Assembly (NCBI RefSeq): GCF_025947365.1
Contig: NZ_CP110012.1
Location: forward strand, 372,001 to 436,000
Reading direction: 5' to 3'
DNA length: 64,000 bases
Source of the DNA: Flavobacterium sp. N502540
Lineage (GTDB): Bacteria; Bacteroidota; Bacteroidia; Flavobacteriales; Flavobacteriaceae
In this document: positions 20,053 to 58,181 of the stretch, in pieces
Position numbering within the stretch: the stretch's first letter is position 1
Layout of the letters: every line of letters begins with the position of its first letter
The notes under the pieces: model-generated
Databases searched by the model: none
Told to the model about the DNA's origin: nothing
Seen by the model: only the letters and a program-made list of their open reading frames with translations
Made by a program: the position numbers and the translations under genes

Positions 20053-20683
20053 TATTTTAAATTTTGAGATTAAAAGAACGAAAATATTGCAAAATCTAAA
20101 CTCTTTTATAGTCCAGATTTCATAAAACGGGATCATCCAGAGCTTAATTCTTTTCAGGAGATTCTTAAAAATTATCTCTTTTACTATTTCTGTTAAACCC
20201 TGAATTTTGATCAATATGAAAACCCAAAGAAAATACAACCTAAAAATTACTCACATTCTAAACCTTGCGCTCTGAAAGAGCCTTGGCAACAACATGGTGG
20301 GAAGCATTATGAATAAAAAAGATTATGATGATAAGCCCTGAAAGGGCGAAAGCCTAATCTCAAAAAAAAATATCCTTTATATATTTTTGAGAAACATTTA
20401 TTCTTCTTTAATCTATTACTACTCATTTTCTTTAGCCCTTTCAGGGCGATATTCACTTCTTCTTAATTCGTAGTGCGATGCACTACGTTAATACTTTAAG
20501 GCTTTCAGCCTATTTTTAAAGGTTTCAAATCACAAATTTTATAAGAATAATCTTTTACAACTTTACCTAACAACTCTTTTTTTGCTAAAGCCATCTCGGA
20601 ATCAAACAAAAAAACCGTTGGTTAAAACCAACGGCTATGCATATCATTAATTCGTGAAATTTTTGAATTCGCGGCTATAAAAT
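20053..20683. repeat. 631-bp spacer with nested palindromes
   Basis: No gene is apparent. GCCCTGAAAGGGC (20335-20347) and GCCCTTTCAGGGC (20435-20447) are exact inverse complements and each is nearly self-complementary. Two hairpins follow: GTAGTGC/GCACTAC (20470-20486) and AGGCT-TTC-AGCCT (20499-20511). A CTCTGAAAGAGCC element sits near 20270. A degenerate ATTCGTGAA...GAATTCGCGGC half-element (20650-20674) resembles the repeats around the GxxExxY gene. The cydB terminator is at 20615-20634. Confidence 0.7.
20615..20634 (-). terminator. cydAB: Rho-independent terminator of cydAB
   Basis: CCGTTGGTT (20615-20623) pairs with AACCAACGG (20626-20634). The plus-strand A-run to the left becomes a run of seven U in the minus transcript. 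It lies 50 bp downstream of the cydB stop. Confidence 0.8.
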
Positions 20684-23249: not shown

Positions 23250-23365
23250 TTGTCATTTCGACCGAAGGAAGAAATCGCATTAGGAAATCCGCAAACAAAA
23301 TAGCCAATCTTTGTCGAGCTTCTTGTATCATTGCGTGCGATTTCTCCCTTCGGTCGAAATGACAA
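23250..23365. repeat. GTCATTTCG-family palindromic repeat, copy 2 (best copy)
   Basis: 30-bp arms at 23250-23279 and 23336-23365 match as inverse complements at 29 of 30 positions; the arm begins TTGTCATTTCGACCGAAGG. The 56-bp centre holds AATCTTTGTCGAGCTTCTTG, related to the centre of the other copies. It lies 144 bp upstream of cydA and 11 bp past the HD-protein stop; a transcript crossing it would form a very stable stem. Confidence 0.85.
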
Positions 23366-26823: not shown

Positions 26824-26856
26824 AAACCCGACAAGTTTTAAAAACCTGTCGGGTTT
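26824..26856 (+). terminator. Terminator hairpin, AAACCCGACA family, copy 1
   Basis: AAACCCGACAAGTTTT (26824-26839) pairs with AAAACCTGTCGGGTTT (26841-26856) with a single mismatch and almost no loop. It follows the YeeE/YedE operon. A close relative follows the next gene at 27416-27450. Confidence 0.75.
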
Positions 26857-26871
26857 ACTAATAGCTAACAG

Positions 26872-27393
26872 ATGAGCCACACAACAGAAAATTTAATATT
26901 AAGAAAAGCAGTTAGCTCTGACGTGCCTTTCATTTGGGAGATTCTTCAAGATGCTATCGAACAGCGAAGACTGGACGGAAGTACACAATGGCAAGACGGT
27001 TATCCTAATGAACTTACCATTCATACCGATATTAAAAACGATCATGGGTACGTTCTTACAGAAAACGACACTATCTTATCTTATGCAGCGATTCTTTTTG
27101 ATAAAGAACCTGCCTACGAAGTCATAGAAGGCCACTGGCTCACTGATGGCGACTACGGAGCCATTCATCGTGTTGCCGTATCGAAACTCGCAAAAGGTAA
27201 AGGTATTGCAACCAAACTGTTTGAAAAGATAGAAAGTTTATGTCTCGAACAGAACATATACAGTATAAAGGTAGACACGAATTTTGACAATATTCCAATG
27301 CTTAAAATTTTAGACAGACTGAAATATACCTATTGTGGTGAAGTTTTTTTCAGAGGAGGAGCACGAAAAGCGTTTGAAAAAAAACTGATTTAG
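26872..27393 (+). CDS. GNAT-family N-acetyltransferase
   Basis: A 173-aa acetyltransferase of the RimI/Phosphinothricin-like group. N-terminal LILRKAVSSDVPFIWEILQD is a typical GNAT beta1-alpha1 start, IHRVAVSKLAKGKGIATKLF is the acetyl-CoA loop, and KVDTNFDNIPMLKILDRLKY is the alpha4-beta6 region. It begins 16 bp after one AAACCCGACA hairpin and is followed 23 bp later by a second copy, so it is an isolated unit bracketed by similar hairpins. The substrate is unknown. Confidence 0.85.
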   Translation: MSHTTENLILRKAVSSDVPFIWEILQDAIEQRRLDGSTQWQDGYPNELTIHTDIKNDHGYVLTENDTILSYAAILFDKEPAYEVIEGHWLTDGDYGAIHRVAVSKLAKGKGIATKLFEKIESLCLEQNIYSIKVDTNFDNIPMLKILDRLKYTYCGEVFFRGGARKAFEKKLI

Positions 27394-27415
27394 AAAATAG
27401 AACAATAAAATAAGT

Positions 27416-27450
27416 AAACCCGACAGATTTCAAAATCCTCTGTCGGGTTT
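27416..27450 (+). terminator. Terminator hairpin, AAACCCGACA family, copy 2
   Basis: AAACCCGACAGA (27416-27427) is an exact inverse complement of TCTGTCGGGTTT (27439-27450), followed by TATTTTG. It terminates the GNAT gene and is nearly identical in its stem to the hairpin at 26824-26856. Confidence 0.75.
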
Positions 27451-39120: not shown

Positions 39121-39190
39121 TAGTTTCAAGTCTTTTTTGTTTCAGGTTTCAAGTTGTTGAAACCGGGAACTTGAAACCTGAAACCTGAAA
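39121..39190. repeat. TTTCAGG/CCTGAAA word-built perfect hairpin in the trp operon
   Basis: The 17-bp arms at 39139-39155 and 39168-39184 are exact inverse complements (GTTTCAGGTTTCAAGTT on the left) around a 12-base loop. The right arm is followed by another CCTGAAAAC unit. It fills the trpD-trpC gap and lacks a T tract. Confidence 0.85.
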
Positions 39191-49684: not shown

Positions 49685-50152
49685 GTGTGCATTTTTATAT
49701 ACCTCAAAAATACAAATTGAATTTTTAAAAATAACAGATCTGAATTGATTTGTTCGATCGCATTATAAAGGTTCCTTTTCGCCACGAATTCACGAATTAA
49801 CTTTTTTAAATTAAATAAAATCCGTGAGTTGTTTCGCATATTCACATTACTAAATATTTATTTTGCCACAAATTTTCGCTAATTTCTGTTTCTATACCTA
49901 ATCTAATTCACAGAAATTCGTGTAATTAGTGGCAACCTTTCTTCTATTAATAAAATCCTAGCACACAAACTGTGAATTTATTCAAAAAAGTGAGCCTTAG
50001 ATTATAATAGGCATTTTCTATGTCGTAAATTTGCAACCATAAAATTCCAAAAACATTTTCAATGCAAAATTGAAAGTTGTATTCTAAATAATAGCCACGA
50101 ATTAACTTTTTTAAAATAATTCGTGAATTCGTGGCAGAGAAAAATTTAGATC
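49685..50152. repeat. Spacer with three GCCACGAATT palindromic repeats
   Basis: No gene is apparent. Three elements share the arm GCCACGAATTCACGAATT or its inverse: 49781-49828, 49865-49933 (arms GCCACAAATT...AATTAGTGGC) and 50094-50135. The last ends ATTCGTGAATTCGTGGC only 18 bp before the GxxExxY gene. A matching half-element lies directly after that gene at 50529-50545, so the gene is bracketed. Confidence 0.8.
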
Positions 50153-50527
50153 ATGACAAAAATCTTGTACCAGCTGGAAAGTTATCAAATAATGGGAATT
50201 TTATTTGATGTTCATAGAAATTTAGGTGGAGGCTTTTCTGAAATCGTATATAAAGATGCTTTAGAATATGAATTTAAGAAAGCGAATATTCCATTTGAAA
50301 GAGAAAAAGAATATTTGGTAAACTATAAAGACATAATATTGAATCACAGATTTTATGCTGATTTTATTTTGTTTGATAAAATTGTACTTGAAGTAAAATC
50401 GAGTGAATTTTTACATCCAAAATACATTTCACAATGTCTTAATTATCTCAAAGTTTCTAAAACGCATTTAGCAATTTTAGCGAACTTCAATTCTGTCTCA
50501 CTTGAATACAAACGTATTATTTTATAA
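50153..50527 (+). CDS. GxxExxY protein, putative PD-(D/E)XK nuclease-fold
   Basis: A 124-aa member of the GxxExxY family (TIGR04256), abundant in Bacteroidota and uncharacterised. The name motif is GFSEIVY at residues 27-33, with Glu30. A nuclease-like active site is visible as Asp70 (RFYADFIL) then Glu80-Val-Lys82 (VLEVKS), with Gln94 in SQCLNYLK, the arrangement of PD-(D/E)XK restriction endonuclease folds. All key residues are intact. The gene is flanked on both sides by ATTCGTGAATTCGTGGC-type repeats and is inserted between yaaA and the CCA-adding enzyme. Nuclease activity is inferred from fold motifs only. Confidence 0.85.
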   Translation: MTKILYQLESYQIMGILFDVHRNLGGGFSEIVYKDALEYEFKKANIPFEREKEYLVNYKDIILNHRFYADFILFDKIVLEVKSSEFLHPKYISQCLNYLKVSKTHLAILANFNSVSLEYKRIIL

Positions 50528-50528
50528 A

Positions 50529-50545
50529 ATTAGTGAATTCGTGGC
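50529..50545 (+). repeat. Half-element of the GCCACGAATT repeat, containing the next gene's start codon
   Basis: ATTAGTGAATTCGTGGC differs by one base from ATTCGTGAATTCGTGGC at 50119-50135. It starts 1 bp after the GxxExxY stop. The GTG at 50541-50543 inside it is the probable start codon of the CCA-adding enzyme. Confidence 0.75.
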
Positions 50546-57793: not shown

Positions 57794-58181
57794 GATTTCT
57801 TGTTTTTAAAGTTGTTAAATATTTTAAATTTTGATAATCTAAGTTTTTATTGATGATTAAAACTCTTTTTTTTTAGGTTCAAAGGTTCAGAGTTCCAAAG
57901 CGGCAAAGTTTTTATTTTCTTATCCGTTAACCTTTGTCTATTTGTTCCTTTTAATTTATACTTCAAAAGTATATCGGATTTTATTCTTTTAAAATTAAAT
58001 GATACCGAGTTGTTGATTTTGATGACTGAATTGTTTTTTTCTGAGGTGCAAAGATGCAAAGCTACAAAGGTTCAAAGATTCTAAACCTGGCTAAAGTATT
58101 TCTTGCACGAACCTAATTATGTCCTTCAATTTTCAAAACCTTTGGACCTCTGCATCTTTGAACCTTTGTAACTATAAAGCT
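57794..58181. repeat. 388-bp spacer with two CAAAGG/CCTTTG word-built palindromes
   Basis: No convincing gene. The first element (57873-57950) runs from AGGTTCAAAGGTTCAGAG to TAACCTTTGTC; the second (58040-58172) from AGGTGCAAAGATGCAAAG to CTGCATCTTTGAACCTTTG. Both belong to the family at 25597-25735. Between them lies AT-rich sequence that may hold the promoter of the 57793 gene. Confidence 0.7.

Follow-up and report, generated by a model that had tools for sequence, protein, structure and literature searches.

The RAYT protein (TnpA-REP), an HUH tyrosine (Y1) transposase, and the repetitive extragenic palindromes (REPs) and REPINs that go with it are among the closest known counterparts of the element treated here, which likewise combines a small nuclease-like gene and its palindromes with many gene-free palindromes elsewhere. 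This element lies in a 64-kb stretch of Flavobacterium sp. N502540 DNA (contig NZ_CP110012.1, positions 372,001 to 436,000; hereafter the window, meaning all 64,000 nucleotides), where a GxxExxY gene encodes a PD-(D/E)XK enzyme of the Cas4/RecB type between two inverted arrays of short words upstream of cca. We consider it probable, at roughly 0.7, that the gene and its two ends form one selfish cassette whose nuclease recognizes its own words and on which the gene-free palindromes depend. An earlier note on this DNA had proposed a RAYT-like unit of nuclease and palindromes, a view that we find supported because copies of the gene are usually flanked by repeats, genomes without it mostly lack the repeats, and cassette-free junctions exist. 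The inverted-word architecture, the joint inheritance of gene and words, and the scattered gene-free words point towards a novel family of small mobile elements.

In contrast to RAYT, a Pfam scan of the window enzyme returns PF13366 only and no HUH family, and unlike REPs, the cassette ends are tandem word arrays whose words vary among the copies that a single genome carries. REP systems have gene-free palindromes that depend on the resident enzyme; in Flavobacterium, such palindromes and the resident GxxExxY enzyme are strongly correlated, with exceptions in genomes G049, G053, G054, and G044. Cas4 proteins hold an iron-sulphur cluster with four cysteines, whereas the window nuclease is a stand-alone protein of 124 aa that has one cysteine and therefore no such cluster. 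REP palindromes carry a GTAG or CGTC tag at their foot (title of PMC3733652), but the feet of the gene-adjacent palindrome (ATAGCCACG and CGTGGCAGA; by eye and for the window only) lack GTAG and show CGTG, not CGTC. S23/intervening sequence (IVS) elements are described as a small open reading frame (ORF) between inverted repeats with suspected mobility by an unclear mechanism (PMC4990558); the cassette, by contrast, is intergenic rather than within 23S rRNA, matches TIGR04256 only and not TIGR02436, and uses other words. The BrickBuilt miniature inverted-repeat transposable elements (MITEs) of Porphyromonas gingivalis resemble our elements in being intergenic, gene-free, and built of tandem units with inverted repeats, though their ends match the IS5 family and their 23-nt unit is unlike the cassette words (PMC4596501).

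Our literature search retrieved no description of a repeat-plus-GxxExxY unit among the listed titles and abstract beginnings, nor any of the repeat strings, with most subscription journals outside its reach; the GxxExxY name was scarce there and found as a passing mention, and the unit is likewise absent from the passages of PMC12306157 and PMC5524665 that were consulted. The link between GxxExxY proteins and palindromes gives this family a testable role and accounts for a class of intergenic repeats, and the matched sets of enzymes and words are natural material on how a small nuclease reads DNA.

The words and the nuclease

The cassette ends are arrays of the words CRCRRAG or CRCRRATT, the latter in the window, with the two ends inverted relative to each other. 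Successive spacings alternate, most commonly as (10,11), (11,10), (9,11), (12,10), (10,12), (9,12), or else (8,8), and the CACGAATT words of the window are 8 bp apart; a word pair with alternating spacing, as in the CRCRRAG branch (9/12 or 10/11 bp, for instance), spans around 21 bp, i.e., two helical turns. Across loci with an inverted-repeat score of at least 12, where one arm has a word the other matches it at positions 1 to 7 in.96,.87,.98,.69,.87,.92, and.98 of cases (191 words) and in the linkers in.64 (315/493). Word class, either AG (the larger branch, 99 loci) or ATT (24 loci, 18 of them in the cca set L181-L207), changes only once on a nuclease tree of 123 loci against a mean of 22 changes after shuffling (FastTree, split support 70, near-copies kept; 123 of 131 loci classable). 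Residues S84, L87, H88, and S93 together with positions 2, 4, and 10 of the nuclease distinguish word group A from B and C of the cca site (see below), a pattern that clade alone could explain.

The window nuclease scores 123.2 bits with TIGR04256 (cut-off 35) and 108.9 bits with PF13366 (cut-off 22). It keeps the G-x-x-E-x-x-Y motif and the catalytic positions (G27, E30, Y33, D70, E80, and K82), which are invariant across a 35-row alignment, as are Q94 and Y98, and the gene is intact with Glu30, Asp70, Glu80, and Lys82 as originally described. Its predicted structure is closest in fold to the Cas4-like SSO0001 (PDB 4ic1), which we take to be a Cas4 protein. Searches with the nuclease gave no match among PDB sequences, no family at E 0.01 in PADLOC-DB 2.0.0 (systems up to 2023), and a single weak match of unannotated function in PHROGs; a GxxExxY search of phages had no match, and 8 of 72,556 plasmid records matched one typed query protein.

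At the window locus itself, GCCACGAATT/AATTCGTGGC occurs at four sites (49781, 50094, 50126, and 50536), which are the only ones in the window and compare with 0.14 in shuffled sequence, while GTGAATTCGTGGC with up to one mismatch occurs four times against 0.03 expected; the repeats bracket the gene, well above chance. The terminal inverted repeat of this cassette scores 14.5. The window genome as a whole (G000, 5.41 Mb) contains five GxxExxY matches above the family cut-off, one of them with two in-frame stops, and a weak one below it. All five above the cut-off lie between inverted repeats (scores 14.5 to 46.5, 300-bp flanks) whose letters differ from copy to copy, e.g., CACGCAGATTTTAGGAGATTTAAGCAGAT, TCGCAAAGACTCAGAGTCGCAAAG, and CCACGAATTCACGAATT, and full-length copies occupy five unrelated places, including the thiH-thiG junction.

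Among 101 genomes drawn from the genus Flavobacterium, 79 carry GxxExxY genes with up to nine matches each. A wider scan of contigs, in which close alignment confirmed at least 585 of 590 stretches, shows that the family and its flanks recur in several phyla: by record title, the best 80 loci come from Bacteroidota, Melioribacter/Ignavibacteria, Nostoc/Anabaena/Tolypothrix, Planctomycetota, Acidobacteria, Methylobacter, Spartobacteria, and others, many of them metagenome-assembled genomes. Three of these loci were too short for 250-bp flanks. Inverted repeats, the terminal hallmark of classical insertion sequences and MITEs, flank 48 of the remaining 77 with a score of at least 14; such a score was reached by 5 of 254 neighboring ORFs and, among 5418 pairs of flanks taken from different taxa, by 517. 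CRCRRAG words cluster upstream of the gene on the top strand and downstream of it on the bottom strand (67 loci, 1-kb flanks). Inverted flanks across genomes had thus been rightly anticipated, yet no single repeat accompanies all copies, and what recurs is a system of short words that differ between nuclease clades.

Inheritance and distribution of gene and words

Matches to the window protein with at least 60% identity are present in 28 of the 101 genomes, and the cca motif follows downstream in 26 of them; of the other two, G035 has sua5 upstream but its contig ends, and the copy of G090 is elsewhere or unresolved. Upstream, 23 of the 28 loci have sua5, which encodes a protein of the threonylcarbamoyl-AMP synthase family (name assigned by eye), while yaaA occupies this place in G000, G004, G006, G008, and G015. 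The last four have no nuclease gene at the cca site and still retain the right end with GTGGC and the likely GTG start of cca.

At this site, nine genomes use word A (CACGAATT), six use word B (CGCAGATT), and four use word C (CGCAAATT), the others being mixed or variant. Nine of the 10 B and C cassettes have the exact word in both arms, and G093 has odd letters common to both arms. On the nuclease tree the three words require two changes, the fewest possible, against six on the cca tree (19 genomes) and eight on the sua5 tree (15 genomes). In approximately unbiased (AU) tests, both neighbors reject the A, B, and C clades (p 3e-7, 4e-4, and 8e-4 for cca; p 2e-3, 6e-5, and 6e-8 for sua5), and the nuclease rejects a four-genome cca clade that was picked after the cca tree had been seen (p 1e-12; support 99/97 for cca and 40/80 for sua5). 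Pairwise distances of cca and sua5 correlate with rho.65 (20 genomes). Nuclease and words hence share a history unlike that of both neighbors, with some vertical signal remaining, which means that gene and ends travel together and largely apart from the genes beside them. In G014 and G045, arms of another word adjoin the present cassette, suggesting that the sua5-cca gap has been occupied serially. A selfish cassette before cca, as first imagined, fits the data, though at a recurrently occupied site and not as a single recent insertion.

Words of the resident cassette are also abundant far from any nuclease gene. G000 has 74 occurrences of AATTCGTGGC, compared with 5 of its reversed control, and by coordinates most of them are distant from GxxExxY matches. 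Arrays of the AG class were found in 68 of 79 genomes with GxxExxY but only in 4 of 22 without (p 6e-9), word A in 38 of 79 against 1 of 22 (p 1e-4), and word B in 24 of 79 against 3 of 22 (p.05; exact patterns, with permutations that ignore phylogeny here and below). Copy number of GxxExxY and repeat number correlate, as predicted, at.55 with genome size held (0 of 5000 permutations as high). For the 19 genomes whose cassette uses word A, B, or C, that word is the commonest of the three elsewhere in the genome in 15 and tied in two (G026 and G045), and none of 20,000 permutations reached these 17.

Junctions without the gene, another expectation of the earlier note, were found at the cca site, at thiH-thiG, and beside trmB, either cassette-free or with a palindrome only. 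At thiH-thiG (ThiH named by profile, ThiG by eye and without an NCBIfam name), G000, G004, G006, G008, and G009 align across the full cassette, G015, G030, G036, and G031 hold palindromes built of CRCRRAG words without the gene, and the junction is bare in G011 and G018. Beside trmB (named by profile; 28 genomes compared by eye), palindromes are present in most close relatives, with words that change from one to the next; they are nested in G000, G052, G075, and G079 and tandem in G091; G077, G031, G005, G051, and G074 have none of the word-array kind. The tandem array of G091 (L294) consists of CACGAATT units at a spacing of ca. 87 bp with CGCAGATT-like words between them.

Mechanism and competing explanations

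We propose that the Cas4/RecB-like nuclease would bind its own words through repeated contacts on the same face of the DNA and may cut the cassette ends or their vicinity, or else a hairpin formed by the single-stranded palindrome. Such cutting could let the cassette, and gene-free palindromes of the same word as its non-autonomous relatives, copy or move to other intergenic places. Insertion would preferably target existing palindromes, which could explain why palindromes are nested and why the sua5-cca gap has been taken over repeatedly.

A parallel is seen in TIGR02436, a four-helix-bundle family (S23/IVS-type, Avd-like) that is present in 99 of the 101 Flavobacterium genomes and has an inverted-repeat score of at least 14 at 22 of 29 usable loci. 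Four of the five high-scoring neighbor ORFs mentioned above resemble this family and use other words (two confirmed by profile, two as close copies by eye). Its loci (L210-L239 as well as L106:2250, L102:2444, L109:2254, and L167:1189) have words of their own of the CTAAG/CTGAG, TTCAGT, and CTTAGA types, and AGGTTCAAAGGTTCAGAG-type word arrays, partly inverted and similar to those at some TIGR02436 genes, lie at 57875-58173 of the window. We only tentatively entertain the wider idea of a new class of mobile DNA in which a minimal Cas4/RecB-like nuclease reads helically phased words that are clade-specific and switched only together with the nuclease, and in which an S23 four-helix-bundle protein in the same design explains IVS-type elements; parallel families of word-array cassettes would then be run by two proteins that are unrelated to each other.

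The TIGR02436 parallel also lends weight to an explanation in which the palindromes are moved by other machinery, be it an unlinked transposase or slippage and template switching during replication, with the nuclease gene as chance cargo: the architecture is evidently not tied to the nuclease alone, and some genomes hold many palindromes without a close nuclease gene. We nonetheless consider this unlikely, since word class follows nuclease clade with one change in 123 loci, the TIGR02436 loci examined use other words, and AG arrays are missing from 18 of the 22 genomes without GxxExxY even though 20 of these 22 still have TIGR02436. Homing into one fixed site such as sua5-cca, where the nuclease would cut cassette-free alleles and be copied in by recombination, agrees with the repeated occupation of this gap by cassettes whose tree is unlike that of the neighbors. 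It is quite unlikely all the same, given the five unrelated places of full-length copies in G000, thiH-thiG among them, gene-free palindromes at dozens of places, and neighbors that do not share the cassette's history.

An old host gene without mobility, whose flanking repeats evolve in concert by gene conversion or quasipalindrome correction, could account for compensated changes in the trmB palindrome (an A/T pair in G053; outermost C/G versus A/T in others; by eye) and for the part of the neighbors' history that the nuclease retains. This is very improbable when words track the nuclease gene and not its neighbors, GxxExxY copy number varies, and word-matched gene-free copies are spread genome-wide. 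Least plausible of all seems an RNA device, with arms that base-pair once transcribed, as the stem of an rRNA intervening sequence does, and that are conserved because they stabilize the RNA or serve its processing. Though the arms sit as tightly around the ORF as in S23 intervening sequences (PMC4990558), no Rfam family reaches its cut-off at the locus (two matches fall far below), and arm mismatches on the sense strand do not favor the G.U type over the A.C type (116 loci gave 133 of the former and 163 of the latter, p 0.09), so that pairing as RNA does not explain the likeness of the arms. The same test at TIGR02436 loci gave 29 G.U against 53 A.C mismatches.

Several observations weigh against the selfish cassette that we prefer. 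Inverted repeats score below 14 at 29 of the 77 usable GxxExxY loci, and same-strand (direct) repeats reach 14 at 20 of them. The arms of word A are looser than those of B and C, being exact on both sides in 2 of 9 genomes, on one side in 6, and on neither in G091. Nuclease distances remain correlated with those of both neighbors: rho is.30 for cca, a value reached in 19 of 2000 permutations, and.36 for sua5, reached in 1 of 2000 (20 genomes each). Word C fails to tell genomes that have GxxExxY from those that lack it (21 of 79 against 5 of 22, p.30), and G044, which lacks the gene, has six B and nine C words. G031 and G074 break the rule of matched words, and G049, G053, and G054 contain 35, 27, and 9 A-word palindromes although they lack any close match to the window nuclease, perhaps because they have lost their nuclease genes. 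Independent pairs on the tree are few (2-3), with word A going the same way in 1.9 and the other way in 0.3 on average. Finally, neither a target-site duplication nor an exact junction can be resolved at thiH-thiG and trmB, where the nearest empty sites are too diverged.

Features of the window locus

The features at the nuclease gene are collected in Table 1. The left palindrome ends 17 bp before the nuclease ATG, where 18 bp had been given, while the position of the right repeat was reported correctly. Two further full palindromes had been claimed upstream: of the candidates, the gene-free one is indeed full, the one at the cassette left end is also full but lies directly before the gene, and the outermost repeat is only a half.

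Table 1. Features at the GxxExxY nuclease locus, in window coordinates
Feature	Position	Strand	Basis or remark
Half-repeat GCCACGAATTCACGAATTA, outermost arm	49781..49799	+	complement of 50117-50135
Palindrome without a gene, same word family, GCCACAAATTTTCGCTAATTTC...GTAATTAGTGGC	49865..49933	.	DNA fold -13.7 kcal/mol, z -6.05
Stretch like the 3' end of a sua5-like gene (upstream of cca in most relatives), contains TAAATTTG	50001..50036	+	comparison by eye, unscored
Cassette left end: full palindrome, two CACGAATT words in right half (50118-50135)	50094..50135	.	DNA fold z -4.41
GxxExxY nuclease, 124 aa, PD-(D/E)XK, E30, D70, E80, K82, Q94, Y98	50153..50527	+	TIGR04256, PF13366; model pLDDT (predicted local distance difference test) 95.3
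Cassette right end ATTAGTGAATTCGTGGC, starts 1 bp past stop codon	50529..50545	.	
Likely GTG start codon of cca (cca to 51968), within right repeat	50541..50543	+	in frame; start use is an inference

The sua5-like stretch upstream of the cassette is possibly a remnant of the 3' end of sua5, and the TAAATTTG within it resembles what we take to be a Bacteroidota -7 box. Farther away in the window, an inverted repeat AAACCTGTCGGGTTTACTAAT/ATAAGTAAACCCGACAGATTT (26842-27430) surrounds a 173-aa ORF (26872-27393) with weak matches only, all under cut-off, to GNAT acetyltransferase models, and three more palindromes of other word types lie at 39139-39184 (GTTTCAGGTTTCAAGTT), 23250-23365 (TTGTCATTTCGACCGAAGG), and 20335-20447 (GCCCTGAAAGGGC).
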